Source: Candidatus Methanoperedens sp. BLZ2 (lineage in GTDB: Archaea; Halobacteriota; Methanosarcinia; Methanosarcinales; Methanoperedenaceae). From it: a DNA stretch of 47,756 nt. The notes below the pieces were generated by a model. The model was not told where the DNA came from. It saw only the letters and a program-made list of their open reading frames with translations, and ran no database searches. Each line of letters opens with the position of its first letter. Within the stretch, counting starts at the first letter, position 1. Position numbers and translations under genes: made by a program. The DNA is taken from positions 1-47,756 of the forward strand of contig NZ_NTMG01000029.1 of NCBI RefSeq assembly GCF_002487355.1. Direction: 5' to 3'. Below are positions 14,938 through 46,735 of this stretch, piece after piece.

Positions 14938-15039
14938 GTGGAGCAAATTGAAAAGACGCTATTATTAGATATCCAGATAACAGTGTTAACTTTAGCAGTA
15001 CGAGCAGGATGTTATGGACAAAATGAGGTAATTTTATGA
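14938..15039 (+). CDS. Candidate 33-residue small ORF heading the isoprenoid operon
   Basis: A short frame with a strong AAAGGAG ribosome site (14920-14926). It reads MEQIEKTLLLDIQITVLTLA then VRAGCYGQNEVIL from a GTG at 14938, or 35 residues from a TTG at 14932, which has the better 5-base spacing. Its TGA (15037-15039) overlaps the ATG of the polyprenyl-synthase gene (15036) in an ATGA junction, the classical sign of translational coupling. The peptide is hydrophobic in the middle with one cysteine (Cys25) near the end. It may be a leader peptide, a small membrane protein or a precursor peptide. It could also be chance, since the frame is short and lacks an ATG. Confidence 0.4.
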   Translation: MEQIEKTLLLDIQITVLTLAVRAGCYGQNEVIL

Positions 15040-15899
15040 TTGAAGCCCTCATAAACCAGTGTCCAGGCATCTCTGACTTACATTTTAAAAAAGATGATTT
15101 AATAATAAAAGCTCTATACCGGAGAGTTAAAATGGTGAATGAATCGATACCAAGATTTCTTTCCATAACTCCTCCGGATGAAATGTATCTTGCTATGCAC
15201 CATCTTATGGATGCCGATAGAAAAAGGTTCTGTCCCTCAACATTGTTAGTGGCAGCAGAAGCCGTAGGGGGGGAACCTGAAGATGTAATCCCTGCTGCTC
15301 TGGCTATAGAATTGATTCATAATGTCTGTCTGATCCATAATGACATCATGGACAATGCCGACATGCGGAAGGGATATCTCACTGTTAATAAAATTTGGGG
15401 TGCATCTGATGGGATTCTCGCAGGGGATGCCCTGTATTCAAAAGCTTTTGAAATTCTTTCATATGCAAAAAGCGGACCATCACAGATCATCGAAAGTATG
15501 CAAATACTATCCAGGACCTATATGGATCTGTGTGAGGGGCAATGGATGGATATCGATTTTCAAAAAAGAAATGATGTGACAGAGAGTGAATATTTACAGA
15601 TGGCGGAGAAAAAAACCGCTGTTCTTTTTGCGGCTGGATTAAAAATAGGTGCTGTATTATCAAATGCAAGCAGGGAAGAAGCGCAGGCATTATGGGACTT
15701 TGGCTGTCTCGCAGGTGTTGGTTTCCAGATATATGATGATATCAAAATATTGAAGGAAACAGGCTCAATTGATCATGCCCTGAACGTGGCTTCCAGTTTT
15801 ATAGATGCTGGTAAATCCGCATTGAAAATACTGCCGGATTCTGAAGCGAAAAAGATACTTATCGGTTTTGCAGATTATATGGTTGAGCAAAAATATTAG
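15036..15899 (+). CDS. Polyprenyl diphosphate synthase homologue with altered aspartate motifs
   Basis: A 287-residue all-helical isoprenyl-diphosphate-synthase family protein, slightly short for the family (about 320). The first aspartate-rich region reads HNDIMDNADMRKG (residues 101-113), so the first Asp of DDxxD is Asn102. The second reads FQIYDDIKI (230-238), keeping two Asp but with Ile238 in place of the third acidic residue. Other family parts are intact: AGDALYSKAFEIL and the Lys before TAVLFAAG. Active enzymes join IPP to an allylic diphosphate with Mg bound by these Asp. Activity here may be altered, or the protein may work with a second subunit. GAGGTAA precedes the ATG, and the start overlaps the small ORF. 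Next to a reductase and UbiA, a membrane-anchor tail is the likely product. Confidence 0.9.
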   Translation: MIEALINQCPGISDLHFKKDDLIIKALYRRVKMVNESIPRFLSITPPDEMYLAMHHLMDADRKRFCPSTLLVAAEAVGGEPEDVIPAALAIELIHNVCLIHNDIMDNADMRKGYLTVNKIWGASDGILAGDALYSKAFEILSYAKSGPSQIIESMQILSRTYMDLCEGQWMDIDFQKRNDVTESEYLQMAEKKTAVLFAAGLKIGAVLSNASREEAQALWDFGCLAGVGFQIYDDIKILKETGSIDHALNVASSFIDAGKSALKILPDSEAKKILIGFADYMVEQKY

Positions 15900-15912: not shown

Positions 15913-17136
15913 ATGAAATATGATACAATTGTGGTAGGGGCTGGTCCTGCGGGAAGTTTTACAGCTTTGAAATTGGCAGAACAGGGTCTTAATGTTCTGC
16001 TTATCGATAAGCAGAGCAGGGACAGGTATAAACCCTGCGGAGGTGGAATGTGCACACGATGCCTGAAATTGGTCGGAGAGCCACCCGACGAAGTTACTGA
16101 GAGAAAGGTTACAAAAGAAACACTTTATACAAAGAACAAGAGCTTTTCAGTTTCGTGTTCTGAATCAATTGGGAAAAAAGGTATAGTAGTATATCGGAAT
16201 AAATTTGATTCGTGGTTAATTGACAGGGCAGAAGCAAAAGGTGTTGAGATCTTAGAAAAGAGCAAAGTAGATTCTATTAAAATAAATGGCAAAGTGACAG
16301 TAAAGTTAGAGGGAGGAAAGGAATTTGAATCTAATCTTCTTGTCGGTGCCTGGGGAGCTTCTTCTTATCTTCATAAGTTTATTAATGTTGCTCCACCAAA
16401 ATATTATACATCTATTTCTCAGGAGTTAAAACTGCCACCAGGTCTGGTTGAAGAGAGATTTAATGAACCTGAGATTTTCTGGGATGGGAATATTACTACC
16501 AATGGCTATTTCTGGATTTTTCCAAGAAAAGAAGGGGTTAATATTGGTTATATGGAACAAACAACAAAAGCGAAAGGAATTAAAGAAAAATTCATTAAAA
16601 TAATTCAAAATCATCCAATAATATCTCAAAAATTAAAAGGATCAGAAGAAATGAAGATAAATGGTAGATCTTTGTTTGGACACCGGATTGCAGAGAATTA
16701 TCTGGATAGGTTTCATGGGGATCATTTTGTGCTCGTAGGAGAAGCAGGTGGCCTGATTAATTCCCTGACAGGAGAAGGTATTTACTATGCATTGAAGTCA
16801 GCAGAGTTAGCAGCATCTATCATTAGTGAAGGGGAATATTCCGAGAAAAGCCTGGGGCGCTATACAGAACTTTGTTATTCTGAATTGATAGATAATGACC
16901 TGAAATATTCTGCCAAAATGGCAAAAATGATGTTTGGTCACAAACCGCAATTTCACGACCGCATCATGGATGCCATGCTGGAATTGACCGAGGAAAATGG
17001 TGAGATAAAAAAAATAATGGAAAGTATGTTTTCCAGCGTTGAGTACGGCCAGATTTATAATCCTCTGATGTCGAAAAAAGGGCTCTTGATTCGCAAACTG
17101 GGCCTGCTTGGCGTAATGAAAATGATATCGAGGTAG
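15913..17136 (+). CDS. Geranylgeranyl-reductase-family FAD oxidoreductase
   Basis: A 407-residue flavoprotein of the geranylgeranyl reductase/PHBH type. FAD-binding motifs are VVGAGPAGSF at about 7-16, the KPCGGGMC segment near 50 that forms part of the active site in archaeal relatives, and VGEAGGLINSLTGEGIYYAL near 285-305. Such enzymes saturate double bonds in polyprenyl chains of lipids or quinones using reduced ferredoxin or F420. The ATG at 15913 has a GAGGTGAT ribosome site; an earlier in-frame ATG at 15868 lies inside the polyprenyl-synthase gene and is unlikely. The gene directly downstream encodes a ferredoxin-like fusion that could donate its electrons. Confidence 0.9.
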   Translation: MKYDTIVVGAGPAGSFTALKLAEQGLNVLLIDKQSRDRYKPCGGGMCTRCLKLVGEPPDEVTERKVTKETLYTKNKSFSVSCSESIGKKGIVVYRNKFDSWLIDRAEAKGVEILEKSKVDSIKINGKVTVKLEGGKEFESNLLVGAWGASSYLHKFINVAPPKYYTSISQELKLPPGLVEERFNEPEIFWDGNITTNGYFWIFPRKEGVNIGYMEQTTKAKGIKEKFIKIIQNHPIISQKLKGSEEMKINGRSLFGHRIAENYLDRFHGDHFVLVGEAGGLINSLTGEGIYYALKSAELAASIISEGEYSEKSLGRYTELCYSELIDNDLKYSAKMAKMMFGHKPQFHDRIMDAMLELTEENGEIKKIMESMFSSVEYGQIYNPLMSKKGLLIRKLGLLGVMKMISR

Positions 17137-17151
17137 GAAGGATAGATAGTT

Positions 17152-18378
17152 ATGGTAGGAATTGTAATGTGTCAGTGTCGGGGAAGAGGGTTTTTCAATC
17201 AGGCAGACTTTGGTAAGCTCAGTACATATATAAGGGAGAATCATGATGTCAAATACATAAGTGAGCATCCTTATCTATGCAGCCCAACACTTGGCTTACC
17301 TTTTTTGAATTCTTTACTAAAAAATGACAAGATTGTAACACTCGCTTGTTACCAGAGATCGCAAAAATGGCTTTTTAAGTCATGTGAGGGAGAGCTGGTC
17401 CATGTTAACATGAGGGATCTGGGTCTGAGTGAAGTTATTACTGAGATGAAAAATATATTGCCTTCAAAAAATGGGGAAAATACCGAAGAAATTCATGAAT
17501 GGTTTCCAGTAATTGATTATGACAGATGTACTGGATGCGGCAGCTGCTTTGACTTCTGCATTTTTGGTGTTTTTGATATCCAGGAGGATCAGGGTGGAGT
17601 AAAAGTTGCAAACCCATATAATTGCAAAGATAACTGTCCTGCATGTGCAAGAGATTGCCCGGAAGAAGCTATAATCTTTGCAAAATCTACGGAAAAATGG
17701 GTTTCTGGTGGAGAAGGAGAGGGTTCTTCAGAAGCAGCAGTATTTACAGTAAAGGATTTTGAATATCCTGGCAGAGCCAGGAAAGTATCAAACATACCTG
17801 ATCTGGATGACAGGCAAAAAATACGTGAACTTATTTACACCAATAAAGAGAGCATTGATTGCATAGATGCAACCGGAGCAAAAATACTAAACCACCTGGG
17901 CCTGCCTTCAAAGTATCTTGATTTCACTATAGCGGAGTTAAAGACCCAGATTTTGAGTGAAGACTTCAGTAAAATTCCTTATAATAAAAGAGTTTTAATA
18001 GTACCTCATTGCCTTCGCGACTCTGAAAAATGCCGGAATCACTATGAACCACTGGAAACCGGTTTACAGCTTATCTGCGAGGATTGCGGAAGTGAGAATT
18101 GTAAGATTAATCCTATTATTAAGGTTGCCAGGGAGTTGGGTTATACCATCTATATCTCAGAGGGAGCAACCGTAGTGTTAAGAATGCTCAAAGAACGAAA
18201 AGCCAATGCATTTTTCGCTGTTGCATGCCTGGATTCGTTGATGAAAGCCATTCCAATTGTAGATTCTTTGAAAATACCAAGCGGAGGTTTACCTCTGCTA
18301 AAAGGAGGATGTAAAAATACGGATATTGAGATAGATACCGTAATCAAGCGGATCAGACTGAATAAGGTGATATCATGA
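17152..18378 (+). CDS. HdrA-N-like / 2[4Fe-4S] ferredoxin / DUF116 fusion protein
   Basis: A 408-residue iron-sulfur protein with three parts. Residues 1-90 (GIVMCQCRGR, then HPYLCSPTLGLPFLNSLL, then VTLACYQRS and VHVNMRDLG) resemble the N-terminal domain of heterodisulfide reductase subunit A, with its cysteines. Residues about 118-185 hold two cluster motifs, CTGCGSCFDFC and CKDNCPACARDCP. The C-terminal 150 residues match DUF116: VPHCLRDSEKC, CEDCGSENCKI, GYTIYISEGATVV, FFAVACLDSLMKA and LLKGGCKNTDI. No membrane segment is present. It sits 15 bases after the reductase gene, with an AGGAAGG-type ribosome site, and its stop overlaps the next start (ATGA). It may pass electrons to the flavoprotein or build part of the product. 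The three-part combination is unfamiliar to me. Confidence 0.82.
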   Translation: MVGIVMCQCRGRGFFNQADFGKLSTYIRENHDVKYISEHPYLCSPTLGLPFLNSLLKNDKIVTLACYQRSQKWLFKSCEGELVHVNMRDLGLSEVITEMKNILPSKNGENTEEIHEWFPVIDYDRCTGCGSCFDFCIFGVFDIQEDQGGVKVANPYNCKDNCPACARDCPEEAIIFAKSTEKWVSGGEGEGSSEAAVFTVKDFEYPGRARKVSNIPDLDDRQKIRELIYTNKESIDCIDATGAKILNHLGLPSKYLDFTIAELKTQILSEDFSKIPYNKRVLIVPHCLRDSEKCRNHYEPLETGLQLICEDCGSENCKINPIIKVARELGYTIYISEGATVVLRMLKERKANAFFAVACLDSLMKAIPIVDSLKIPSGGLPLLKGGCKNTDIEIDTVIKRIRLNKVIS

Positions 18379-19301
18379 ATAGCTTATGCATAGCTACGGT
18401 TAAAGAACTATCACCGGAGCTTCAGGAGGAATTGGATGGCACAGGAAACTTATTTAGCAAACTCCAGCAAAAAGATGGTGGATTTGTAGGAAGGTTGGGC
18501 GAAACTACTTCGGACCTATATTATTCATTCTTTGCAATTGAAACATTCAAAATGATTGAAAAAGAAAAAATGTTAGATCATAGTGGCCTTAAAGATTTTT
18601 TATTTTCATGTTATAATAAAAATGGTGGTTTTGGATATAGAAAGGACGCATATCCTGATATGATTCATACTTTCTGCGGAATCGGAACATCCATAGCAAC
18701 TGGTAACTTCGATGAACTTGATAGAGAAAAAATCAGTGAATTTATCCTGTCTTTACAATCCGCAGAGGGAGGTTTCCTGAAAGATGGAAAATCAAGCCAA
18801 CCCACTGCATACTCGACATTTTATGGGATTTTCTCTTTGAACCTGCTAGATAAGTCTGATTTACTGGATAAAGAATTTCTCAATAAAACCTCTGAATTTT
18901 TGATCAACCTGAAAACACCGGAAGGAGGTTTTAAAGCATCGTATAAATCTTTGCAACCAAATCTTGTTGAGACGGCATCGGCATTGTTTACATTATATTT
19001 ACTGGATTATTTAAATCGTATTGATGAAAAACAAGTTAAAGATTTTGTATTAAATTGCCAGTCAAACGCAGGTTTCAAAAATCATTTAAGATCTAAAGTA
19101 ACTGACCTGGCGTCATTTTTTTGTGCGGTTAATTCTCTCACACTGCTGGAATCTTTAAATACAATTTCTGCAAACAAAGTTACAGATAGTATTCTCAATT
19201 TCAAGACTCCCTGGGGTGGATTTGGCAATATGGGCTCTCCGGATATTGAATATACATATTATGCTATCTATACCATGATTCTTCTTTCAAGAGAGAGGTG
19301 A
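18375..19301 (+). CDS. Protein-prenyltransferase-beta-like alpha/alpha toroid protein
   Basis: A 308-residue cytoplasmic repeat protein. Six turns have the prenyltransferase/squalene-oxidase repeat sign: LQQKDGGF, CYNKNGGFG, LQSAEGGF, LKTPEGGF, CQSNAGF and FKTPWGGFG. Two stretches resemble the zinc site of protein prenyltransferase beta subunits: SDLYYSFFAIE (Asp47, with Tyr49 where Cys is a zinc ligand) and DMIHTFCGIG (His98). Their 51-residue spacing is close to that in Rab geranylgeranyl transferase. So two of three zinc ligands may be kept, and catalysis is uncertain. No alpha subunit is nearby. The start overlaps the previous stop (ATGA), and the stop overlaps the next ATG by one base. 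It could bind or attach a prenyl chain. Confidence 0.8.
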   Translation: MNSLCIATVKELSPELQEELDGTGNLFSKLQQKDGGFVGRLGETTSDLYYSFFAIETFKMIEKEKMLDHSGLKDFLFSCYNKNGGFGYRKDAYPDMIHTFCGIGTSIATGNFDELDREKISEFILSLQSAEGGFLKDGKSSQPTAYSTFYGIFSLNLLDKSDLLDKEFLNKTSEFLINLKTPEGGFKASYKSLQPNLVETASALFTLYLLDYLNRIDEKQVKDFVLNCQSNAGFKNHLRSKVTDLASFFCAVNSLTLLESLNTISANKVTDSILNFKTPWGGFGNMGSPDIEYTYYAIYTMILLSRER

Positions 19302-19591
19302 TGAAAATTAGAGAAATATATGTTAGATTTTTTGGAATAATTTCCTCTGAGACAGGTCATAAGGAAATTAAAATTAGCACGGATGCAAAAAATATCGGTG
19401 AACTGATTGTTGAAGTTTGTAATAAGTATGATAACTTAAAAAAGAGGCTATTGTCTTCAGAAGATTCAGTCCTCAACAGGCATGTCAGATGTTATGTGAA
19501 TGGAATGGATATTCGACTTATCAGAGAATACAAGACCAGGTTAATGGATGGAGACAAAATATTATTTTTGGTTTCATTCCAGGGAGGTTAA
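19301..19591 (+). CDS. MoaD/ThiS-like ubiquitin-fold protein with C-terminal Gly-Gly
   Basis: A 96-residue beta-grasp protein: MKIREIYVRFFGIISSETGH at the start, a central helix (NIGELIVEVCNKYDNLKKRL), the VNGMDI turn, and the closing LMDGDKILFLVSFQGG. The last two residues are Gly-Gly, the feature of sulfur carriers (MoaD, ThiS, CysO) and of archaeal SAMPs, which are adenylated and made into thiocarboxylates or joined to lysines. No E1-like activating enzyme or JAMM protease is in the window. The ATG at 19301 has a GAGAGGTG site; the GTG at 19298 is an alternative. It is followed 3 bases later by the pseudo-threonine-synthase gene, a pairing that recalls CysO and its PLP-dependent cysteine synthase. 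Confidence 0.85.
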   Translation: MKIREIYVRFFGIISSETGHKEIKISTDAKNIGELIVEVCNKYDNLKKRLLSSEDSVLNRHVRCYVNGMDIRLIREYKTRLMDGDKILFLVSFQGG

Positions 19592-19594
19592 AAA

Positions 19595-20917
19595 ATGGGA
19601 ATATTAAAATGCAGGGATTGTGGAACTTTGTATCCTGAGGCTATGATAACATCCTGTAGTGAGTGTTATGGCCCTGTTGATACATGCATAGAAGACATTG
19701 ATAGGAGCATCAAAAGCAAGATAGAGAGCCGTTATCCAAGCATGTGGCGGTATCTGGAGTTCCTGCCGGTCAATGATAAAAGAGCTATGGATCTAAACGA
19801 TGGATGGACTCCTTTGCTCAGAAGTAATACACTTGGAGAGGTCACAGGCATAAAAAATCTTCATTTAAAATTCGAAGGTACTAATCCAACGCAATCTTAT
19901 GAAGACCGTTCCGTAAGTATCTCCATAAATAAAGCGATTGAATTTAATAGTACTGCAATAGGATGCGCTTCGACACATTATATTGCGGATTCCGTAGCAG
20001 CGCATGCAGCAAGAACCGGACTAAAATCTTATATCTTTGTTCCGGATAATACACATCCTGAAATAATATCTCCTTTATTATCGTATGGAGCGCAAGTATT
20101 GAAAGTTTATAAACAAGAAGGAGATATAGACTGCCAATGCCATGGGAATGATCCGGCTACATGTACGCTGGTAACAAGGATCGCTGAAATACCAGAATTA
20201 AGTTTGCCGATTGTTGACCTGGATTTGCGCAGTTATTTCAATTCCGGTTATAAGACTTTGAGCTATGAGATAGCAGAGCAACTTGGATGGATATCACCAG
20301 ATAACATTGTGATACCGGAAGGCTCCGGCTCTCTCACTTATAATATGTATTTAGGTTTTAAGGAACTGTACGAATCAGGACTGATAGAAGACTTACCTGA
20401 ATTTTTTATAGTTCAATCCAGCGGTTGTGCTCCAATTGTGGATGCTTTGATCCATAAAAAAGAAATACCAACCCCATTAAGGAATCCTGTGACCCTGTGC
20501 GAAAATCTTCGGGTTGGTGATCCGGCCGATGGTCTTTATGCCCTCAGGGCAATTAAATACGGTGGGTATGGTATTGCAGTTGAGGATAAAGAAGGAATAG
20601 AATATGCGGAATTGATCGCAAAGAAAGAAGGAATATTACCGGATTATAGCGGAGGATTGGCGGTTGCCGGACTGGTCAGGCTTTGCGAGGCTGGCAAAAT
20701 AAGCCCGGCTGACAGCACGGTTGTTGTACTGCCGGCTTCAGGTATTAAAAAAAGAGATAACTATCAGTTATCTCCTGCTTTACAGGTACCGAGGATTTCA
20801 TCAAATATCGCAGATTTACAATCATATTTAGAAACTGAAAAGAAAAATATGGTACGAACGGCAATATTTAAGAAAGCGGGGGAAGCTGCCGAGCCACCCG
20901 CTCTTTTAAGAATATAA
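19595..20917 (+). CDS. Threonine-synthase-fold protein lacking the PLP lysine
   Basis: A 440-residue member of the fold-II PLP family, closest in look to archaeal threonine synthases. An N-terminal zinc ribbon (CRDCG and CSEC) and the usual domain order are kept. The conserved segment NPTGSFKDR, whose Lys binds PLP, reads NPTQSYEDR here: Glu103 replaces the Lys (codon gaa, clear in the DNA). The phosphate or substrate loop, normally STGNTAAS, reads STHYIADS, and the PLP phosphate loop is altered to PEGSGSLTYN. The frame is otherwise intact and well conserved, so this is not a decaying gene. It is likely a protein with a new, non-PLP function, perhaps binding the Gly-Gly protein encoded 3 bases upstream. 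True threonine synthase must lie elsewhere. Confidence 0.85.
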   Translation: MGILKCRDCGTLYPEAMITSCSECYGPVDTCIEDIDRSIKSKIESRYPSMWRYLEFLPVNDKRAMDLNDGWTPLLRSNTLGEVTGIKNLHLKFEGTNPTQSYEDRSVSISINKAIEFNSTAIGCASTHYIADSVAAHAARTGLKSYIFVPDNTHPEIISPLLSYGAQVLKVYKQEGDIDCQCHGNDPATCTLVTRIAEIPELSLPIVDLDLRSYFNSGYKTLSYEIAEQLGWISPDNIVIPEGSGSLTYNMYLGFKELYESGLIEDLPEFFIVQSSGCAPIVDALIHKKEIPTPLRNPVTLCENLRVGDPADGLYALRAIKYGGYGIAVEDKEGIEYAELIAKKEGILPDYSGGLAVAGLVRLCEAGKISPADSTVVVLPASGIKKRDNYQLSPALQVPRISSNIADLQSYLETEKKNMVRTAIFKKAGEAAEPPALLRI

Positions 20918-20958: not shown

Positions 20959-22062
20959 ATGGAAAAAATAGTAAAACTTGGAATAGTAGGTGGTTTCCTT
21001 GGTGCAGGTAAGACCAGCACTATAATAGAAATAGGTAAAAAACTGGTAACCGATTACGGCAAGCGTGTAGCAATAATCACGAATGACCAGGGAGAAGAAC
21101 TGGTGGATACCAAAATAGTCAAGGATTACGGCTTTGAGGTTGGTGAAGTTCTTGGTGGATGTTTCTGCTGTAAGTTCCCTGATTTTATGGCATCATCTGA
21201 GGATATTCTCAAAAAAACCAATCCTGACATAATTCTTGCAGAACCAGTCGGGAGCTGCACGGATATCCCGGCAACGCTGCATATGCCGATAAGAAAATTT
21301 TATAAAAATACTTTTAAAATAGCGCCGCATATCGTACTTGTGGATGCCCGGCGCATACTAAATATGTCTTCTGAGATGGATCTGGTATCGCCCGACACAT
21401 CCACAGGATATCTATTCTCGCATCAGATACAGGAAGCTGAGGTTCTGGCAGTCAACAAAATAGATCTTGTGTCCCCTGATCAAATAGATCAGATAAAAGA
21501 AGTATTAAAGAAACTCAACAGCAGAGCGGAAATAATGTTAATCTCAGCTGCGAACGGAACAGGGATGGATGCGCTGGCCGGGAAAATATTGAATGACGAG
21601 TATAAAAGTTATTATTATCCGCATGTTGACTACAAAGTTTACGGCAGCGCTGAGGCAGAAATGGGATGGTTAAACGGGGTATGGAAAGTAGATAGCAAGC
21701 AGGATTTCAAAGTCAAGGAATTCATCAGGGATATTCTGATAACTGCAGCGACAGATATAAAACAAAAAAATGGGGATATAGGTCATGTTAAGATATATTT
21801 CTCAAACAAGAAAAATTTTACAAAAGCCAGCTTTGTTTCATTTGGTCAGGATGTGTGCTTCACGGGTTTAATTCCAGATAAAACAGGATCAGGAGAAATG
21901 GCAATAAATGCTCGCGTTGCAATAGGTCACAAAGAGCTGAAACAATCTATTTTAGATTCGCTGGAAATAGTTTCCTCAAAATATGATACGGAACTTAATA
22001 CACTGAAAATAGAAAGTTTCAGTCCACCGCAACCCGAACCACATCATCGGATTCTGGGATGA
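20959..22062 (+). CDS. CobW/COG0523-type G3E GTPase (metallochaperone-like)
   Basis: A 367-residue P-loop GTPase of the G3E group. Motifs: Walker A GGFLGAGKTS at residues 11-20, the metal-binding GGCFCCKF (CxCC) near 66-72, EPVGSCTD, and the guanine motif NKID. COG0523 members insert or deliver Zn, Co or Fe to client proteins. The ribosome site AAGGAGAGATAAAA precedes the ATG, after a 41-base gap. The C-terminal 120 residues (WKVDSKQDF, GHVKIYFSNK, INARVAIGH) are conserved-looking but unassigned, and the tail PHHRILG is histidine-rich. Within this operon, a client could be the zinc-ribbon pseudo-synthase or the toroid. The stop overlaps the aquaporin start (ATGA). Confidence 0.88.
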   Translation: MEKIVKLGIVGGFLGAGKTSTIIEIGKKLVTDYGKRVAIITNDQGEELVDTKIVKDYGFEVGEVLGGCFCCKFPDFMASSEDILKKTNPDIILAEPVGSCTDIPATLHMPIRKFYKNTFKIAPHIVLVDARRILNMSSEMDLVSPDTSTGYLFSHQIQEAEVLAVNKIDLVSPDQIDQIKEVLKKLNSRAEIMLISAANGTGMDALAGKILNDEYKSYYYPHVDYKVYGSAEAEMGWLNGVWKVDSKQDFKVKEFIRDILITAATDIKQKNGDIGHVKIYFSNKKNFTKASFVSFGQDVCFTGLIPDKTGSGEMAINARVAIGHKELKQSILDSLEIVSSKYDTELNTLKIESFSPPQPEPHHRILG

Positions 22063-22724
22063 CCATGTTCAGGAAAATCGCGGCAGAATTTATCGGAACA
22101 TTTGCTCTTGTGTTTGCCGGAACAGGAGCTATAATTGACGATTCATTAACCGGGAAAATCGGGCAAATTGGCATAGCCATGTCTTTTGGATTAGTAGTAG
22201 CTGTTATGATATATTCCCTGGGACATATATCGAAAGCCCATTTTAATCCTGCTGTGACTATTGGGTTTGCTTCAGTCGGGAAATTTGAAAAAAAACATGT
22301 TCTTCCTTATATTGCTGCTCAAATTGGAGGTGCAATTCTTGCAAGCGCTTTACTTTTTATGATATTCGGTAATATCGGGAACCTTGGCGCTACCCTGCCC
22401 AGAGGTTCATGGATGCAGTCGTTTATTTTAGAAGTTGTAATGACCTTTTTCCTGATGCTGGTGATAATATCAGTCGCTACGGATTCTAGGGTTAAACCTG
22501 AAATATCAGGTATTGCAATAGGTGGAGTCGTAGCCCTTGATGCACTTTTCGGGGGTGCAATCTCCGGTGCGTCAATGAATCCGGCCAGATCTTTAGGACC
22601 AGCGATAATTGGTGGAATATTCGATAATCAATGGATATATTTGATAGCCCCGGTCATAGGTTCTCTAATCGCTGTCGTGATTTATGAGTATATTCGAACT
22701 GAAAAAAAAATTGCAGGTGGTTAA
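22059..22724 (+). CDS. MIP-family aquaporin/glyceroporin
   Basis: A 221-residue six-helix channel with both signature loops, HFNPAVTIG and SMNPARSLGP. The Arg after the second NPA forms the selectivity filter. The N-terminus is MTMFRKIAAEFIGTFALVFA (a second ATG two codons in). These channels pass water, glycerol or other small neutral solutes; some family members pass arsenous acid, which deserves mention because ArsA-like and ArsD-like genes follow 2 kb later. The substrate cannot be read from the sequence. The start overlaps the GTPase stop, and the stop is one base before the next ATG, so it belongs to the same transcript. Confidence 0.93.
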   Translation: MTMFRKIAAEFIGTFALVFAGTGAIIDDSLTGKIGQIGIAMSFGLVVAVMIYSLGHISKAHFNPAVTIGFASVGKFEKKHVLPYIAAQIGGAILASALLFMIFGNIGNLGATLPRGSWMQSFILEVVMTFFLMLVIISVATDSRVKPEISGIAIGGVVALDALFGGAISGASMNPARSLGPAIIGGIFDNQWIYLIAPVIGSLIAVVIYEYIRTEKKIAGG

Positions 22725-22725
22725 A

Positions 22726-23928
22726 ATGCCAAAAGAGAAAATAACAAATAATAAACGAACAGTATTTAGAAAATCAGTAAACTGCTGGGCAATGTTGATC
22801 CTTCTACTGGGATTTTCTGCATCTATGGCTGCCGGGATGCCAGAAACCCCTGCTTCGCAGGCGTCATCGGGCATGCAATTGCTGCACGACAAGATGGCAG
22901 AGAAGGCAGAGAAATGGCACAGCGGCAACTATTGTTTATCTGGAGACGTGGATACAGCAATAGAGAAAGCTGTATCCTTTTTAAAAGAAGGTCAATTACC
23001 ATCAGGCGAGTTTCCAACATACGTTTCATTGAGCCCTGATATGGCTGACAAAATATATTTACCACAGGTTTTTAGCTCGGCAATTGTTCTTCATTCGCTC
23101 AGCTTTGTAGAATCCGATCCAGAAGTCAATGAAATGAGAAATAAAACGGTAGTATATATACTGGCTAATAAAGAAGAACCGGGTGTCTGGAGATTCTATG
23201 GAAAATATTCCAGTATGCCGCCTGATCTGGATGATGCATCAGTAGTTTTTGCCTCCTTAAAAGAAACCGGAATACCTGTTGAAGAAAGCGGCTTAGAGTA
23301 TGCACTTAACTACAAAAATCAAGAAGGTTTATTTTATACATGGATGAACGAAGAGAAATGGATGAATGAATCAGACCCTTTTTATTTGTTATATAAAAAC
23401 AATGATGTAGATCCTGTAGTTAATGCAAATATGCTGTATGCTCTCTCTCTTGCAGGTGAGCAGGCGCCAGAAGTAAGCGACTATCTGAATAGTTATATAC
23501 AAAATAATTCCTTCACCGAAGCCACAATGTATTACCACATTCCATATATCCAGCTTTATACGTTCTCAAGGGCATATGCGGATGGGCAGGCAGAGGACTT
23601 AAAACCTTCAATGCCAGTAATAAAAAACTATCTTTTGAGTACTCAAAAACCGGATGGAAGCTGGGGGGATGAAATAAACACAAGTATGGCTGCTATTTCA
23701 CTAATGAATTCAGGATATAAAGGTAAAGCATTAGATAGGGCTATAACACATATATTGGATACCCAGAGAAGTGATGGGAGCTGGCCGGAGATTGGCGTCC
23801 AGTCATTAACATTTTATTATGGTTCAGAAGAGTTTACTACAGCTTTCTCGTTAGAAGCATTAAGCAAATATAATGAACTGCATAATAGAAAATGGCAAAA
23901 AACGATGAGAACATTATTGAATAACTGA
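22726..23928 (+). CDS. Exported prenyltransferase/squalene-cyclase-like toroid with DxDD motif
   Basis: A 400-residue protein. Residues 12-37 form a signal peptide or anchor (basic KRTVFRK, then WAMLILLLGF and SASMAAG), so the rest lies outside the membrane. It contains alpha/alpha-barrel repeats: LPSGEFPTYV, TQKPDGSWGDE and TQRSDGSWPEI. Residues 164-172 read MPPDLDDAS, a match to the DxDD acid motif of class II terpene cyclases such as squalene-hopene cyclase (Asp167-Leu-Asp169-Asp170). It is smaller than true cyclases (about 630 residues), so cyclase activity is not assured; a polyprenyl-binding role outside the membrane is also possible. The frame extends upstream to 22684, but the ATG at 22726 with GCAGGTGG ahead is the better start. 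It is the last gene of the first operon. Confidence 0.8.
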   Translation: MPKEKITNNKRTVFRKSVNCWAMLILLLGFSASMAAGMPETPASQASSGMQLLHDKMAEKAEKWHSGNYCLSGDVDTAIEKAVSFLKEGQLPSGEFPTYVSLSPDMADKIYLPQVFSSAIVLHSLSFVESDPEVNEMRNKTVVYILANKEEPGVWRFYGKYSSMPPDLDDASVVFASLKETGIPVEESGLEYALNYKNQEGLFYTWMNEEKWMNESDPFYLLYKNNDVDPVVNANMLYALSLAGEQAPEVSDYLNSYIQNNSFTEATMYYHIPYIQLYTFSRAYADGQAEDLKPSMPVIKNYLLSTQKPDGSWGDEINTSMAAISLMNSGYKGKALDRAITHILDTQRSDGSWPEIGVQSLTFYYGSEEFTTAFSLEALSKYNELHNRKWQKTMRTLLNN

Positions 23929-23944
23929 AATATCTTATATTTGT

Positions 23945-24580
23945 TTAACTTTTTTTTCCAATTAAATTCCGGATAACCTGATTCTCAGCCTTATGCAGGT
24001 GTTCAAGAAGAGTTGTCTTATGAATTCCAATCTTTCTGGCAAGCTGGTCCGCATTAATTTTCCTGGGATGATCAAAGTAACCGTTATCGTATGCGTGCAG
24101 CAATATTTCTTTTTGCTTCTTAGTAAGTTTGCTGAAGGCATTTAAGTCCAGCGGATCATATTTTTGTACCGATAATATTTCAAATCCCCACCCAAATTCT
24201 TTGGCGATTTTAAGTATATTATTCAATTCTTCAGATGAGCCTATAATCCCAAATTGACATATAGTCCCATCAAAAATAATCGGATATTCCAGTTTAAGAT
24301 CAAATTGTCCTAAAAACCTGGAGATCTCATCAGAGAAATTTCCTTTTGTCAGGCATGTATATTTTTTGTCTTCATTCCCTATTATGATCAAATCGGTGAT
24401 ATAATCGCTCTTTATACTTTCTATACTCATTCCATCTTTGAGCGTAATATTACAGACCTCTGTGTGAGTGGTAGGCGTAAAGTTGAAGATCGAAAGAACT
24501 TCAAGGCGATCGATCATGCTGGTTAAAGGAACACAGCATTGGAATATACTCCCGGACACACTCACGGTCATTTTTCTCAT
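23945..24580 (-). CDS. Bat-type HTH (HTH_10) transcriptional regulator
   Basis: A 211-residue archaeal regulator of the bacterioopsin-activator type. The C-terminal HTH is typical: LTKKQKEILLHAYDNGYFDH, then RKINADQLARKIGIHKTTLL and EHLHKAENQVIRNLIG. The N-terminal 140 residues (VSVSGSIFQCCVPLTSMIDR) form a sensing domain with a Cys-Cys pair. It is divergent from the ArsA-like gene and convergent with the first operon, with 16 bases between stop codons. It is thus placed to control the second operon and perhaps both. A start at 24571 (MTVSVSG) is possible. The signal sensed is unknown. Confidence 0.85.
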   Translation of the reverse strand: MRKMTVSVSGSIFQCCVPLTSMIDRLEVLSIFNFTPTTHTEVCNITLKDGMSIESIKSDYITDLIIIGNEDKKYTCLTKGNFSDEISRFLGQFDLKLEYPIIFDGTICQFGIIGSSEELNNILKIAKEFGWGFEILSVQKYDPLDLNAFSKLTKKQKEILLHAYDNGYFDHPRKINADQLARKIGIHKTTLLEHLHKAENQVIRNLIGKKS

Positions 24581-24665
24581 AATCTTAGTTTGTCAACCGG
24601 TCTTATATATACTCCTACATGTATGGGTAAAAACCTATCTTTCTTTGCTGCTTGATAGCAGTATC
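24581..24665. promoter_or_regulatory. Intergenic promoter region between Bat regulator and ArsA-like operon
   Basis: 85 bases lie between the divergent regulator and the ATPase gene. CTTATATATACTCC (24601-24614) is a good TATA element for the plus-strand operon, followed by TCCTACATGTATGG with the palindrome ACATGT. The ArsA-like start has no strong ribosome site, so the transcript may be short-leadered. The regulator probably binds here. Confidence 0.5.
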
Positions 24666-25574
24666 ATGACAATGCAAGATTTGATCAATAACAAGAAGTT
24701 CCTTTTCTTTGGTGGAAAAGGCGGCGTAGGAAAGACAACAATGGCATCATCGACCGCGGTCTGGCTGGCGGATCAGGGTTACGATACGTTGGTCGTGGCT
24801 ACAGACCCTACAGTGAGTCTATCGGCGATCTTTGAACAACAGATCGGGGAAACTGAAGTAACAAGGATAAAAGAGGTCAAGAATCTCTGTGGACTCAATA
24901 TAAATCCCAAGAAAGCATCCGGTGTTTTCCAGGCAAGGTTGAATCACATGGTAGACGAGCTCACAGGCATGTTTGGAAAGGAAGTAATGAGCACACCCTG
25001 CGCAGAAGAGATGGCAGCTTTTGATCAATTTGTAAGCTATCTGAATTCAGACGAACATGATATTATAGTATTTGATACCGCTCCAACAGGTCATACACTA
25101 AGGGAGCTGTCAATGCCTTTTGATTGGGCGAATTATATTTCCAGGCAGCTTCAAAATAGATTGGTGCTGGGCAAATTATTGAATATCAAAGTGGGGGGAG
25201 ATACACTGGATAATTTAAACATAGAACAAAAAAGATATGAAAATGCAATAAAAATACTGGCAGATACAAAAACAACTTTATTTACATTAGTATTGCTGGC
25301 TGAAAACCTCCCCATTGAAGAAACTGCAAGAGCGATCGAGAATTTGAGCCAGTTAAAAATAAATGTTCCGGCTTTAATAATAAACGAAATAATCCCCACC
25401 GAGGTGCTAAAAGGAAATTGGTTTTTAGAAAAACGAAGATCAACGCAGGACAGATACCTGGATATCATAGGTAAAAGATTTAAAGATTTATACAAAAAAG
25501 AAGTGCCTCTCTTTGAAACCGATATTACGGGAATAGAAAATATGAGAAAAATTGGAAAAATTCTGTATGGGTGA
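24666..25574 (+). CDS. ArsA/Get3-like ATPase
   Basis: A 302-residue P-loop ATPase. Deviant Walker A GGKGGVGKTT (residues 16-25), DPTVSLSAIF at switch I and FDTAPTGHTLREL at switch II mark the ArsA/Get3 family. Members deliver arsenite to an ArsB pump or insert tail-anchored membrane proteins. The CxxC zinc-dimer motif of Get3 was not found, and the arsenite cysteines are not clear, so the cargo is open. The frame runs upstream to 24468 inside the divergent regulator; ATG at 24666 (or 24672) is the sensible start. The stop overlaps the next start by 8 bases, and the next protein is ArsD-like, the known ArsA partner. Confidence 0.88.
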   Translation: MTMQDLINNKKFLFFGGKGGVGKTTMASSTAVWLADQGYDTLVVATDPTVSLSAIFEQQIGETEVTRIKEVKNLCGLNINPKKASGVFQARLNHMVDELTGMFGKEVMSTPCAEEMAAFDQFVSYLNSDEHDIIVFDTAPTGHTLRELSMPFDWANYISRQLQNRLVLGKLLNIKVGGDTLDNLNIEQKRYENAIKILADTKTTLFTLVLLAENLPIEETARAIENLSQLKINVPALIINEIIPTEVLKGNWFLEKRRSTQDRYLDIIGKRFKDLYKKEVPLFETDITGIENMRKIGKILYG

Positions 25575-25905
25575 TATTGTGGAACATACAATTATACTAT
25601 TTCAGATACCGGGCTGCTGTGCACTGACCAGAGGGCTTGCTAACAGGAATTACTCCAGGATATTAAAAAAGATATGCAAAGATGCCGGTATTGCGTTCAA
25701 TGATGTTGATCCGATGACAGTACAGGATATTCTGATGAAATTAGTGCAGGAACAGCGACCGGATGTATGGCAAAAAGTGGAACAAAACGGTTTGTCTGTA
25801 ATAATGGATTCATTTCCTGTTGTTGTCATGGACGGGAAAATTATCTCATTGGGTAAATTTAATGAGGACGACATAAGAAAACAAATATTCAGTGTGGCTA
25901 AATGA
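25567..25905 (+). CDS. ArsD-like thioredoxin-fold protein
   Basis: A 112-residue protein whose plan resembles the arsenite chaperone ArsD: a beta strand running into a vicinal cysteine pair (IILFQIPGCCALTRG), and a closing strand-turn-strand-helix DSFPVVVMDGKIISLGKFNE like LPLLLLDGE in ArsD. The third metal-binding cysteine of ArsD is missing. ArsD hands arsenite to ArsA, and here the gene overlaps the ArsA-like gene by 8 bases. A general thioredoxin-fold carrier is an alternative. GTG at 25579 is another possible start. The stop overlaps the next start. Confidence 0.7.
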   Translation: MGDIVEHTIILFQIPGCCALTRGLANRNYSRILKKICKDAGIAFNDVDPMTVQDILMKLVQEQRPDVWQKVEQNGLSVIMDSFPVVVMDGKIISLGKFNEDDIRKQIFSVAK

Positions 25906-40180: not shown

Positions 40181-40648
40181 TCATACTGCCGGAAGATTTT
40201 TTTTCCATGTCTGGCAGAATTCTTCATATACCGGGCGGAAAAATCGCTTGACAAGTATTACAGCTACCACAGCGGCAATGGCAGGAGCCAATCCCAGATT
40301 TGTCACTAGAAGCGCAGATAGGGCTGCTGCTATAGTCGCTTCATCGTTGGTACTGAAAGCCTTTATCAGATCATTTCTGTCTCTCGTATCTTCTGTCTCA
40401 GAGTCACAGATGAGCTTGTATGCCTCCAATTCCAGGCGGTTGAATAGTCGCTGCCCGAACTCCATCACATCTTCCTTAAGCCCCATTTGTGCCTTGTCAT
40501 AGGTGACCTGAGGTTCGAACGAACTGCCCTTTGTTGGGTCCTGCGCTATGGCTTTTGCGCGCATCCCGAGTTTTTCGTATAGCTGTTTCTCATCGGATTT
40601 CAACAATTTCTGAACTGCCGGCTCGGCTTGTTTTGTTAGATCTGCCAT
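40181..40648 (-). CDS. Small protein with C-terminal membrane hairpin, partner of CHAT gene
   Basis: A 155-residue protein. A soluble, charged N-terminal part (residues 1-100: MADLTKQAEPAVQKLLKSDE onward) precedes a hydrophobic stretch at about 104-134 (TIAAALSALLVTNLGLAPAI, then AAVVAVILV) that could form one or two membrane passes, followed by a basic end KRFFRPVYEEF. I do not recognise the family. It lies 52 bases downstream of the CHAT-protease gene on the same strand, so it may be the protease's partner or target. The hydrophobic part with small residues could insert into the membrane. Confidence 0.6.
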   Translation of the reverse strand: MADLTKQAEPAVQKLLKSDEKQLYEKLGMRAKAIAQDPTKGSSFEPQVTYDKAQMGLKEDVMEFGQRLFNRLELEAYKLICDSETEDTRDRNDLIKAFSTNDEATIAAALSALLVTNLGLAPAIAAVVAVILVKRFFRPVYEEFCQTWKKNLPAV

Positions 40649-40700
40649 AATTTACCCCAGAAACAACTAATACTGCCCTCAATTTATAGTTTTCCATACG

Positions 40701-43217
40701 TCAAAATCTTGGCGGCTCAAAGCGCACGGTCGCCGGGCCGAATAGCGTATATGCCAGACCGAGAGGGTTATTGAGTTCCATGAAATGTCGCCGGGCGTTC
40801 AGCAAAACGCTGCCAGCCTGTCCCCCGGCGAGAAAGTCCCCCAGAAATTTTTCTGCAAACGGATGTGCAAATTCTACAGTCATAGGACATTCCGTCCCTA
40901 TTACGCCACTAGCGCCGCTCGTAAGGAAAAAATGAATAAAGCTGTCCGACAAAGAGGGAGTTACCTGTGCGGATTCGCACATGTTCAATATAACGAAAGG
41001 ATGGGACTGGAAATGGAGATCTTTAATCTTGTAAAGCTCTTCAAGATACAGCTTTCCATTGGATAGCTCGATCCAGGAACTATCCGGTTCGAATTTTTTT
41101 TTCTTTATGCTTTCATACAATAGTCTGTAGGTCTCAAGCAAGGGTGAGTTCTCATCCAGACTCTCATACCGCCTGATAAATAAATCAAGGTTCAATCCGC
41201 CACCGATGTCAGCCCGGCGGTGCCGGGTATAGCCATGAGTGTAGAAGTAGAGAATATGAGCATCGCATTTGCTCAATAGCTTTATACAATCATCTGCGTC
41301 TGTGATGGGAGGAGTGACTTCAAGGCTACCTGCGCTTCTTGCCTTTAAGTTTTCCAAAAACGATATTTCTTTGTCTGCATTCCTGAAGGCTTCCCACAAC
41401 ATGAACCCGAGCTTGAGCCTGTCTGCAATCTTAACAGGCTCATCTGTCCCTTTATTTCTGTTGGGCAACTGCTGTTCAATGCAATATCTGAGTCCCCAGA
41501 ATCCCTCAAGATCCGGGAGTTCATAATCCTTACGCGATATATCTCTGTCATAGAGCAATGCCCATGGGAACACAAAGCTTGCAGCATTCTGATGAAGGGA
41601 AATTTGAACGATCCCTCCCTGCCTGACAGTATGGTTTTTTAACCACTCACCTATCCTGTATATTGAGGTGTCCTTTTCAAGCATGAACAGTTTTGTCCAG
41701 AGCGTTTGACCTGCTCTGGCAAGCATGCGAACGCTCGCAATGAAATCATCCTTTTCCCCTTTCAGTCCCGAGGTAAAAGTATTACTCATCGCAATGTCGT
41801 ACCAGATATTTCGGATGTTTAACAGGAGGTCTTCCAGGTCTGGTGCCGGGAGGTAAGCCGTAGCTGTTAAAACCATTTTTTGATCCGGGGATTTGAAGAA
41901 GGCAAAGGTGAATGAAAAGCTCTCTCCCTTTTTGTTTATGTCAATATGCAAATCCCTGGGCATGATCTTATCAAAGTCCCGGTAATCAAGCTCCCGTCTT
42001 TCCTGTTCAAGCCAAAAAGGTTCTTCCAACCCCAATCGTGGCCGGATTGGATCATCAAACCCGCCAACGACTTCGGCATATATCATAACAACCTCGATGA
42101 GATTGAATTCATAATAAAGGCGGATTCTGATCTGGGTTAAGTCGTCCTTACTGTTAGACTCCTTTAATGGTGTGACATGGAAAATGGCATTCTCTATGGA
42201 GTCACCGTGAGGCGGGAGAATCAGTGTCTGGGTTGGATCTTTAATCGTAATGTAATCTTCGTGTTCCGTTGTTGCTGTTACCATGAGAGTTACATTTTGC
42301 TCCTGTCCGGGTTCCTGAATAGGAGCCCTTTTATCCCCTTTAAAAGGGATACCTTTTATCTTGGTCCGCACCGCTACTTTCAGTTGATATTCCTGCCCTG
42401 TTTGCAGCGTGTGCCCCTTCAGTACTTCCTGGCCCTGTTTGCTTCCTTCAGCGTAAATAAAGGTAAAATCGGCGTATCGCGGCGAAGGTTCGACGAGAGA
42501 AACCTCGCTGATTGGTTTGCGCATGTCTATCTTTCTATCGACAGGCACATCTATCCGATCCATGCCAAGATCACTCTTTTTGGATTCCCACTCTTTTACG
42601 TACTTTGTTTCCATTGATTTCTTGAATCTTGGCCTGGTTACTGATGCACGTACTCCGGGTTTTTTCTGCTCTAACTTTGGCGGTTCCACTTCTGGCAGGT
42701 CTAATTGTGGTTCCACATATACTCCCCGCTCTGACGGTTTGGCTCTTTTTAAGGCGGGCTTTCTGGCCATAGCTTGTAATGGAAAGAGAGTTCGGATATT
42801 TTCTGAAATCAAACTCTGTATATCCTCAGGGATTTTATCGAAATAGGTTGATACAATCTGTTCAATACGGGATACGAACTTATCATTTTTAGAAAATTTT
42901 AGCAATAATTCATTTCTTAAATTTTCGGGCAACTTGTCGAAGTATGCATCTAAAATATTAATCACAAAAATAACCGCTTCCTCTTTTTCCGAGAGCCTGA
43001 GCAACACATCATTTCTTACATCTTTAGAAATCATGTTGAATTTAATGAGGAGAATACGCCCCAAAGTCCCGGCAACCTCATTCTTTTCAGAGAGCCTGAG
43101 CAGCAGCTCATCTCTTTTGTTCTCAGGAATATTATCAAAATTATCCTCTAAATTCCGGCCTTCTTCCCTGATATCCTCAGATGTTTCAGAAGAAATGCCA
43201 ATATCTTTTCCACCCAT
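40701..43217 (-). CDS. CHAT-domain caspase-like protease
   Basis: An 838-residue protein. Residues about 20-145 hold three helical repeats of about 37 residues (NIPENKRDELLLRLSEKNE, MISKDVRNDVLLRLSEKEE, KLPENLRNELLLKFSKNDK). A basic, proline-rich linker (150-230) and a beta-rich region (245-390) follow. The CHAT protease fold is C-terminal: the dyad is His661 in ILYFYTHGYTRH and Cys747 in VILNMCESAQ, then SGASGVIGTECPMTVEFAHP and ARRHFMELNNPLGLAYTLFG. It is cytoplasmic. The ribosome site AGGTGA precedes the ATG at 43217. CHAT enzymes often cut a neighbour in defence or cell-death systems; the next gene encodes a small membrane protein. Confidence 0.85.
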   Translation of the reverse strand: MGGKDIGISSETSEDIREEGRNLEDNFDNIPENKRDELLLRLSEKNEVAGTLGRILLIKFNMISKDVRNDVLLRLSEKEEAVIFVINILDAYFDKLPENLRNELLLKFSKNDKFVSRIEQIVSTYFDKIPEDIQSLISENIRTLFPLQAMARKPALKRAKPSERGVYVEPQLDLPEVEPPKLEQKKPGVRASVTRPRFKKSMETKYVKEWESKKSDLGMDRIDVPVDRKIDMRKPISEVSLVEPSPRYADFTFIYAEGSKQGQEVLKGHTLQTGQEYQLKVAVRTKIKGIPFKGDKRAPIQEPGQEQNVTLMVTATTEHEDYITIKDPTQTLILPPHGDSIENAIFHVTPLKESNSKDDLTQIRIRLYYEFNLIEVVMIYAEVVGGFDDPIRPRLGLEEPFWLEQERRELDYRDFDKIMPRDLHIDINKKGESFSFTFAFFKSPDQKMVLTATAYLPAPDLEDLLLNIRNIWYDIAMSNTFTSGLKGEKDDFIASVRMLARAGQTLWTKLFMLEKDTSIYRIGEWLKNHTVRQGGIVQISLHQNAASFVFPWALLYDRDISRKDYELPDLEGFWGLRYCIEQQLPNRNKGTDEPVKIADRLKLGFMLWEAFRNADKEISFLENLKARSAGSLEVTPPITDADDCIKLLSKCDAHILYFYTHGYTRHRRADIGGGLNLDLFIRRYESLDENSPLLETYRLLYESIKKKKFEPDSSWIELSNGKLYLEELYKIKDLHFQSHPFVILNMCESAQVTPSLSDSFIHFFLTSGASGVIGTECPMTVEFAHPFAEKFLGDFLAGGQAGSVLLNARRHFMELNNPLGLAYTLFGPATVRFEPPRF

Positions 43218-44771: not shown

Positions 44772-44854
44772 AAGTTTTTATTTTATAGTTGACCACTTAT
44801 AAAAATTGTTGCCTGTGTCACCATATATATACTACCATCACCAAGTCAGGAACC

Positions 44855-46735
44855 ATGCCCCATTATCTTGGAGAACTACTGCTATACTGGTGTCCTTCCT
44901 GCAATCTTCCGGTACTCGGAAAAACCTGCGCTTGCGGCCTGTCCACAAAAAAAATTGAAGTAACACCCCCGGGTGACATCAGGCCAGCTTTTCCATACGA
45001 TATAAATCTCATCAACAGCACAACAGAGAAACAATTCGGCCTCAAACTCATCCCCGAAGGCCATCTTGTAGTCCTGAACAAGGCCCCTTATGAAGACAGG
45101 ATGGATGAAGTGATTTTTGACGGCGCGATCATGGGTTCTATCCGATTCGAACTTGAAAAAATGGACTGGGTATTCATTCCAAGGCTTGAGGGAGCAAGGC
45201 GTCTTGTGAATGGGACAAAATGCATAGTTATCGATAAAGGCGCTGTTAATTTTATTATGAAAGGTGCATCTGTGCTTGCGCCCGGTGTTAACGAGGCCAA
45301 TCCCGGTATTGTGGAGGAAGATGAGGTAATTATCCTGACGCCTGAACATGAAGTGATAGCTACGGGCAGGGCAAGGATGAGCGCCCAAAGGATGCTCACT
45401 CATGAAAAGGGCATGGCTGTAAAAACACGATGGCACGATAAACCGCGTGCTCTGGAACAACAGCAACCCACAGAACAGGCAAAAACCTGGGATGATGCAG
45501 TGCAGGCAAATATCCATATTCTTCGAACACGTGAAGAAAAAGCTCATAGTTTTATAAAAAATGTGGTTGAAACCCAGAAAAGACCTGTGACTGTTTCATA
45601 TTCAGGCGGGAAAGACAGTCTTGTCACGCTGCTTCTTGTGCGTGACACCTCAACGGAATTTGATATCCTGTTTGCTGATACGGGTCTGGAGTTCACTGAA
45701 ACCGTAGAAAATGTCAAACAAACAGCAAAGGAGCTTTCTTTACCATTGAAAATCCATTCATCAGGTGATTCATTCTGGCAGTCCATAGATAATTTCGGGC
45801 CTCCGACTGTGGAAGCAAGATGGTGCTGCAAAGTCTGCAAGCTCGGGGCGATCACACAGGTCATAGAACAAAACTATGAGAACGGTTGCCTCACATTTAT
45901 CGGTCAGCGAAAATATGAAAGCCAGATAAGGGCCAACAGCGAGCATATCTGGAAAAACCCCTCTGTTGGAAACCAGATCGGTGCCACCCCGATCCAGAAC
46001 TGGACTGCGCTTCATGTATGGCTGTACCTTTTCTGGAAAAAAGCAAAATACAATCCGTTGTATGAAGAGGGATTTGACAGGATCGGATGCTGGCTTTGCC
46101 CTTCGGCAAGCATGGCTGATTTTTCAAGATTGTCCCAGATCCATCCTGAATTGAGTGAAAAGCTTGAAAAATACCTTAAAAGTTATGCTTCCCGTAACGG
46201 ACTGTCCGATGAATGGGTAAAATACGGCTTCTGGCGATGGCAGGCACTCCCTAAATCAATAGGTATGATCGCGCAAAAGCTGGGAATAAACATTGTACCG
46301 AAAAATGAAAAGAAACCCGCCCAATTCACATTGACTGCTGGATACCGCCCATGCAAAGCAGGAGGCATCACGGCAGAAGGAAGTTTTGGGACTCCTTTGA
46401 ATCTTTCACTTATTGAAGAATCAGGTTTCATGACCCTGATAGGTGAAACAAATTCAATTGACGGCGTGATACTTGTTTCGCAAAATGAGAATAATGTCCA
46501 TGTATATGCAAGCGGGACAGTGGTTGCAAGAGGCGGGAATGAGGATGAAGCCAGGGAATTAGTACAACTTGCGCAAATATCAATAAGGCGGGCAGTATTA
46601 TGCACCGGGTGCGGCGTATGTGTGGGCAAGTGTGCGGTGCGGGCGGTAAGCGTCAACGGGACTGCAAGAATAAGTGAGAAGTGCACCCGTTGCGGGAAAT
46701 GCACATGGTCATGTCCTGTGGTGAAGTTCAGGTAA
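44855..46735 (+). CDS. PAPS-reductase-like multidomain protein with PUA and ferredoxin parts
   Basis: A 626-residue archaeal protein of the COG0175 type. An N-terminal zinc ribbon (CPSCNLPVLGKTCACG) is followed by a PUA-like domain (GAVNFIMKGASVLAPGVNEA onward), the adenine-hydrolase PP-loop TVSYSGGKDSLVTLLLVRDT, a CCKVCKLG cysteine set and the sulfonucleotide-reductase part ending near 470, then a C-terminal ferredoxin with CTGCGVCVGKCAVRAVSV and CTRCGKCTWSCPV. The frame is open from 44789, but AGGAACC before the ATG at 44855 and the start of the zinc ribbon favour it. The family probably thiolates or reduces a sulfur substrate or RNA; exact substrate unknown. Confidence 0.88.
   Translation: MPHYLGELLLYWCPSCNLPVLGKTCACGLSTKKIEVTPPGDIRPAFPYDINLINSTTEKQFGLKLIPEGHLVVLNKAPYEDRMDEVIFDGAIMGSIRFELEKMDWVFIPRLEGARRLVNGTKCIVIDKGAVNFIMKGASVLAPGVNEANPGIVEEDEVIILTPEHEVIATGRARMSAQRMLTHEKGMAVKTRWHDKPRALEQQQPTEQAKTWDDAVQANIHILRTREEKAHSFIKNVVETQKRPVTVSYSGGKDSLVTLLLVRDTSTEFDILFADTGLEFTETVENVKQTAKELSLPLKIHSSGDSFWQSIDNFGPPTVEARWCCKVCKLGAITQVIEQNYENGCLTFIGQRKYESQIRANSEHIWKNPSVGNQIGATPIQNWTALHVWLYLFWKKAKYNPLYEEGFDRIGCWLCPSASMADFSRLSQIHPELSEKLEKYLKSYASRNGLSDEWVKYGFWRWQALPKSIGMIAQKLGINIVPKNEKKPAQFTLTAGYRPCKAGGITAEGSFGTPLNLSLIEESGFMTLIGETNSIDGVILVSQNENNVHVYASGTVVARGGNEDEARELVQLAQISIRRAVLCTGCGVCVGKCAVRAVSVNGTARISEKCTRCGKCTWSCPVVKFR

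Follow-up and report, generated by a model that had tools for sequence, protein, structure and literature searches.

In T. thermophilus threonine synthase, K61 forms the Schiff base with PLP, N87 contacts O3' and T317 contacts the ring nitrogen. The mycobacterial CysM-CysO system pairs a PLP-dependent fold-type II protein, the thiocarboxylate-dependent cysteine synthase CysM, with a ThiS/MoaD-like carrier encoded with it. The substrates of CysM are O-phosphoserine and the carrier CysO (PMC12910592). In plants, the TSB-like protein, a descendant of tryptophan synthase beta, is a fold-type II pseudoenzyme that binds and activates its partner, TSA (PMC12727527). A cysH-thrC fusion in Thermoplasmata provides a loose link to sulfur (PMC11237513). 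Nothing relevant on an archaeal ThrC-MoaD pair or on a Methanoperedens ThrC paralog was found in the literature searched.

We analyzed a stretch of 47,756 nucleotides (here called the window) from Candidatus Methanoperedens sp. BLZ2, whose genome (G000) contains methyl-CoM reductase. The window harbors a gene for a threonine-synthase-like protein without the PLP lysine, which we named ThrCx (Table 1). Its reading frame is uninterrupted and without frameshift. The Pfam search matched PALP (PF00291, 170 bits) as the sole domain and thus no DNA-binding domain. The best NCBIfam models were threonine synthases, every one scoring below its curated cut-off (thrC TIGR00260, 160.2 vs. 167.1 bits), and PRK models likewise stayed under theirs. 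Structure prediction, proposed in a preliminary description of the locus, yielded a threonine-synthase fold: the AlphaFold2 model, computed from a 25-sequence alignment, had a pLDDT of 78.9 and a pTM of 0.83; its low-confidence parts were residues 182-184 (within the insert described below), residues 295-308, and the C-terminus. The first 21 Foldseek matches of this model were all threonine synthases (best 2ZSJ, E 1.6e-24, target TM 0.81); the overall rmsd was large (12-13 A), so the match serves fold assignment only. Judged by sequence and predicted structure, ThrCx is a fold-type II, threonine-synthase-like protein. Its best matches in both sequence and fold are to threonine synthase (ThrC; 2ZSJ, 1UIM, 2D1F), which has the PLP lysine.

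Table 1. Features of the ThrCx locus, in window coordinates (G021 and G023, the other two genomes with ThrCx)
Feature	Position	Strand	Basis
Prenyl diphosphate synthase, degraded: 54-aa internal deletion, NDIMD for DDIID	15036..15899	+	
Geranylgeranyl-reductase-family flavoprotein, missing in G023	15913..17136	+	
Dicluster ferredoxin-DUF116 fusion, in operon of all three species	17152..18378	+	
Prenyltransferase alpha-alpha toroid protein, in G000 and G021, missing in G023	18375..19301	+	
MoaD/ThiS-family ubiquitin-like sulfur-carrier homolog, C-terminus ...SFQGG	19298..19591	+	PF02597, 36 bits
ThrCx, Lys-less threonine-synthase-like protein, 440 aa	19595..20917	+	ORF, PALP domain, N-terminal C4 zinc-ribbon-like motif
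NPTQSYEDR, residues 97-105, Glu103 in place of Schiff-base Lys	19883..19909	+	Alignment
STHYIADS, residues 126-133, His128-Tyr129 for Gly-Asn	19970..19993	+	Alignment
Insert CQCHGNDPATC, residues 180-190, possible metal or sulfur site	20132..20164	+	Alignment
GSGSL, residues 243-247, phosphate-loop equivalent, kept	20321..20335	+	Alignment
PASG, residues 380-383, in place of TG(N/H)G pyridine-N contact loop	20732..20743	+	Alignment
CobW/G3E-type P-loop GTPase	20959..22062	+	

The three cofactor anchors of the T. thermophilus enzyme, K61, N87 and T317, align with Glu103, Tyr129 and Pro380 of ThrCx. As a reference, we used 22 Lys-containing homologs, comprising 20 proteins of the sister type (C47, see below), the canonical ThrC of the genome, and the third paralog. 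The Lys, Asn and Thr anchors are invariant in 22/22, 22/22 and 21/22 of them, whereas E/Y/P occupy these sites in all three ThrCx orthologs. The preliminary description had reported the exchange of the lysine for Glu103 and the change of STGNTAAS to STHYIADS. Both were borne out in three species, against F/K at positions 102/103 and G/N at positions 128/129 in 22/22 homologs. Its third claim, a changed third PLP loop, goes too far if the phosphate loop is meant; the loop that changed is TG(N/H)G, now PASG. The phosphate loop is not lost, because GSGSL follows the pattern of the Lys-containing paralogs ([A/G]SGAL); the corresponding loop in solved ThrC structures is GNAGN. Across the 22 homologs, 58 columns are invariant, of which ThrCx keeps 44 and changes 14; the changed columns include F102, K103, G128 and N129, and several are PLP-pocket positions. 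The insert CQCHGNDPATC is identical in 3/3 ThrCx orthologs and missing from all 22 Lys-containing homologs. With C180, C182, H183 and C190, this Cys-rich loop is a candidate for accepting sulfur or a metal, metal binding being a guess.

Orthologs of ThrCx were found in G021 (96% identical) and G023 (locus L034, 89%), all with E103, Y129, P380 and the insert. Neither the 60 relatives nor the 393 phylum genomes yielded a further ortholog, and a genome-collection scan, which depends on exact peptide words, returned L034 as the sole close relative. The set therefore spans three species of one genus. No stop codons interrupt the gene in any of them, dN/dS is 0.115-0.123 (NG86), and the G000 and G023 genes differ by 92 synonymous and 48 non-synonymous codon changes. 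ThrCx is maintained by selection, in agreement with the earlier claim that the protein is kept and is not a decaying synthase; this rests on the dN/dS of ~0.12 and the substitution pattern, not on operon position. A decaying pseudogene was rejected on the same dN/dS and on identical pockets in three species. Sequencing error as the source of the PLP-site changes is ruled out by identical residues in independent assemblies. A mobile-element origin was also rejected: ThrCx has no relative in IMG/VR, and the plasmid matches all lie below 60% identity (best-ranked 35%).

The gene run comprises genes for a prenyl diphosphate synthase, a geranylgeranyl-reductase-family protein, a ferredoxin-DUF116 protein, a prenyltransferase-toroid protein, MoaD, ThrCx, a CobW GTPase and an aquaporin. 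Synthase, DUF116, MoaD, ThrCx, CobW and aquaporin form the core common to the three species, G023 being without the reductase and toroid genes. In all three, a MoaD gene with a GG tail is located immediately upstream of ThrCx; in the window, its stop codon is 3 bp ahead of the ThrCx start. An intact gene in an operon, as first described, was thus confirmed. Taking this intactness as proof of function fails, however, because the prenyl diphosphate synthase that opens this gene run is degraded, so operon position alone is no proof of function. The synthase has internal deletions and altered Asp motifs in G000 and G021 (in G000, an Asp of the first metal motif is gone) and is intact in G023. A sigma-70-type promoter scan, a model unsuited to archaea, detected sites no more commonly than in shuffled sequences.

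Close relatives of the CobW GTPase (92-96%) were found, among 60 relatives, only in the two other ThrCx-bearing genomes. A 43% relative of the DUF116 protein occurs in G005 and G009. There (L072, 343-3429, and L071, 9097-12169, respectively), the ferredoxin-DUF116 gene adjoins genes for a GcvH-like lipoyl-domain protein, an aquaporin and a DGC-domain protein, which stand in the place of MoaD, ThrCx and CobW. This is a second DUF116 context that includes a small carrier protein.

Several other features were noted in and around the window. Distant CobW GTPase relatives in other families of the order (L054, L058 and L059) are encoded, as judged by eye, directly 3' of a RamA-like (corrinoid activation) protein. 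Positions 22059-25905, a block conserved in relatives, contain genes for the aquaporin, a secreted toroid protein, an HTH_10 regulator, an ArsA/GET3 ATPase and a small Cys-Cys protein, ArsD-like as judged by eye. At 40181-43217, a C-terminal stretch looks CHAT-protease-like (YFYTHG...LNMCESA) and adjoins a small protein, possibly a caspase-like system. The gene at 44789-46735 reads as a fusion of PUA-like, PAPS-reductase-like and dicluster ferredoxin regions.

The source genome encodes three other ThrC-like paralogs (C36, C47 and C28), each with the PLP lysine. C36 is the canonical ThrC (373 bits to TIGR00260). In a maximum-likelihood tree, ThrCx was sister to the C47 type with 97/98 support; its stem branch is long (1.18), and the placement could reflect long-branch attraction. 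On this sister position to a MoaD-paired type, descent by recent copying from canonical ThrC was rejected. In the C47 type, a MoaD/ThiS-family gene whose product ends in AVSGG is located directly downstream in 31/31 loci (L002, L007-L033 and L040-L042) from several archaeal families, and no MoaD gene was found at the canonical ThrC (C36) and C28 loci. The C47-type protein passes NCBIfam thrC TIGR00260. It shares with ThrCx the fold, an N-terminal CxxC...CxxC motif, the phosphate loop and the adjoining MoaD gene. In contrast to ThrCx, it has the Lys, Asn and Thr anchors, its MoaD gene lies downstream instead of upstream, and it has no Cys-rich insert. MoaD and ThrCx may or may not have duplicated together (support 84/57); the MoaD order is reversed relative to the parent pair. 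The description of ThrCx as a threonine-synthase homolog thus stands for fold and PALP domain, but the relevant parent is the MoaD-paired paralog and not canonical threonine synthase.

The best reading of these comparisons is that ThrCx may derive, with loss of the lysine, from a ThrC-like/MoaD pair resembling mycobacterial CysM-CysO. Both ThrCx and CysM are of fold type II and have a ThiS/MoaD-like carrier encoded with them; unlike CysM, ThrCx is without the PLP-binding lysine. Among the annotated genes of the ThrCx operon, no Mec+-like or E1-like gene was seen.

The Lys-less condition is not unique to ThrCx, which the preliminary description had missed. Searching 393 phylum genomes with the pattern NPTxS[FY](non-Lys)DR revealed two further true Lys-less ThrC-like groups in archaea, a lower bound, as the pattern is blind to replacements whose codon starts with A. 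In the first group (L091-L093), a PALP domain with NPTGSFEDR is fused to a PadR-like winged helix (PadR domain in L091). Its genes are divergent from pdxS-pdxT in 3/3 genomes with enough flank (L091, 5973-8630; L092, 5649-8244; L093, 4084-6655), suggesting a candidate regulator of PLP biosynthesis, a possible fold-type II counterpart to the bacterial MocR/PdxR idea. These proteins share the Lys-to-Glu exchange and the GSGS loop with ThrCx but differ in the HTH fusion, a separate tree branch and no MoaD. The second group is haloarchaeal (L079-L085) and has Leu or Val for the PLP lysine (NPTGTFLDR or NPTGSYVDR). By eye and not by family search, an FAD-oxidoreductase-like and a DtxR-like gene flank it in L095 and L096. 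A single Lys loss shared by ThrCx and either group was weakly rejected (AU p 0.042 and 0.029, with long branches). To judge from the sequences, the losses in ThrCx and the other two groups were probably separate events.

In ThrCx, catalytic residues are lost, the fold is conserved, and selection is purifying. We consider it likely that ThrCx descends from a MoaD-paired archaeal ThrC-like PLP enzyme and is now a conserved pseudoenzyme. It would then perform no PLP aminoacrylate or aldimine chemistry and, instead of making threonine, would have the role of a binding or adaptor subunit. It would still dock its MoaD partner, with the thiocarboxylate tail entering the former active site in the manner of CysM-CysO, and would possibly bind a phosphorylated ligand via the retained phosphate loop. 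This adaptor mechanism, taken on its own, is tentative. The plant TSB-like protein would be comparable as a non-catalytic fold-type II paralog kept for partner binding; while its partner is TSA, the partner candidates of ThrCx are MoaD and the C47 paralog. The new Cys-rich loop might accept sulfur or metal, with the CobW GTPase and the DUF116-ferredoxin protein serving it. A more doubtful reading is that ThrCx, in its clade-specific operon with CobW GTPase and ferredoxin-DUF116 protein, has become a PLP-free sulfur-relay subunit: the pocket that once bound PLP would receive thiocarboxylated MoaD, and sulfur would pass from it to the Cys-rich loop. The preliminary description had concluded that selection keeps a protein with a new activity. 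The selection is supported; the new activity fits the evidence no better than a binding or regulatory role without catalysis.

Two rivals remain alongside the pseudoenzyme reading, both of them unlikely and to the same degree. One is an active enzyme with new PLP-independent chemistry, in which Glu103 would act as acid/base, a metal would sit on the Cys-rich loop, and the substrate would be phosphorylated or thiocarboxylated. It could account for a pocket fixed to particular new residues (E, H, Y and P) and not scattered, for the conserved new CxCH...C insert, and for the adjoining CobW GTPase, which could supply the metal. However, fixed new residues are also expected if the protein serves for binding, and the three species are too close to have had much time for scatter. 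We know of no homolog with such PLP-independent chemistry. The other rival is a regulatory subunit of the Lys-containing C47 paralog, forming a hetero-oligomer or sensing a ligand in the style of TSB-like or PDX1.2. The catalytic paralog is present in the same genome, the plant TSB-like protein is a fold-type II precedent, and the winged-helix-fused proteins by pdxST suggest that a ThrC domain without the lysine can serve as a sensor. Against this, ThrCx is ~39% identical to the C47 paralog, at which mixed dimers are not obvious, it has its own MoaD and operon, and it carries no DNA-binding domain.

Continued PLP binding by ThrCx, either non-covalent or via another lysine, is quite improbable. 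The phosphate loop is retained and conserved lysines such as Lys113 and Lys385 are present, but the Asn and Thr contacts are gone along with the Schiff-base lysine. Moreover, the Lys-containing enzymes conserve Lys113 and Lys385 just as well, so these two are not compensatory. A decaying duplicate heading for loss, to which the degraded prenyl diphosphate synthase next to it and the narrow distribution of ThrCx might point, is hardly credible given the low dN/dS, the absence of stops in three species, and the identical pocket residues and insert.

Genomes label such proteins threonine synthase, and ThrCx is implausible as one by the usual PLP mechanism. The interest of ThrCx lies in pointing to the ThrC-like/MoaD pair and to the recurrent loss of the lysine among ThrC-like proteins of archaea. 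The former, widespread in archaea and little noticed, is a putative pair of ThrC-like enzyme and MoaD carrier. The latter suggests repeated reuse, in archaea, of the fold-type II PLP scaffold without covalently bound PLP.
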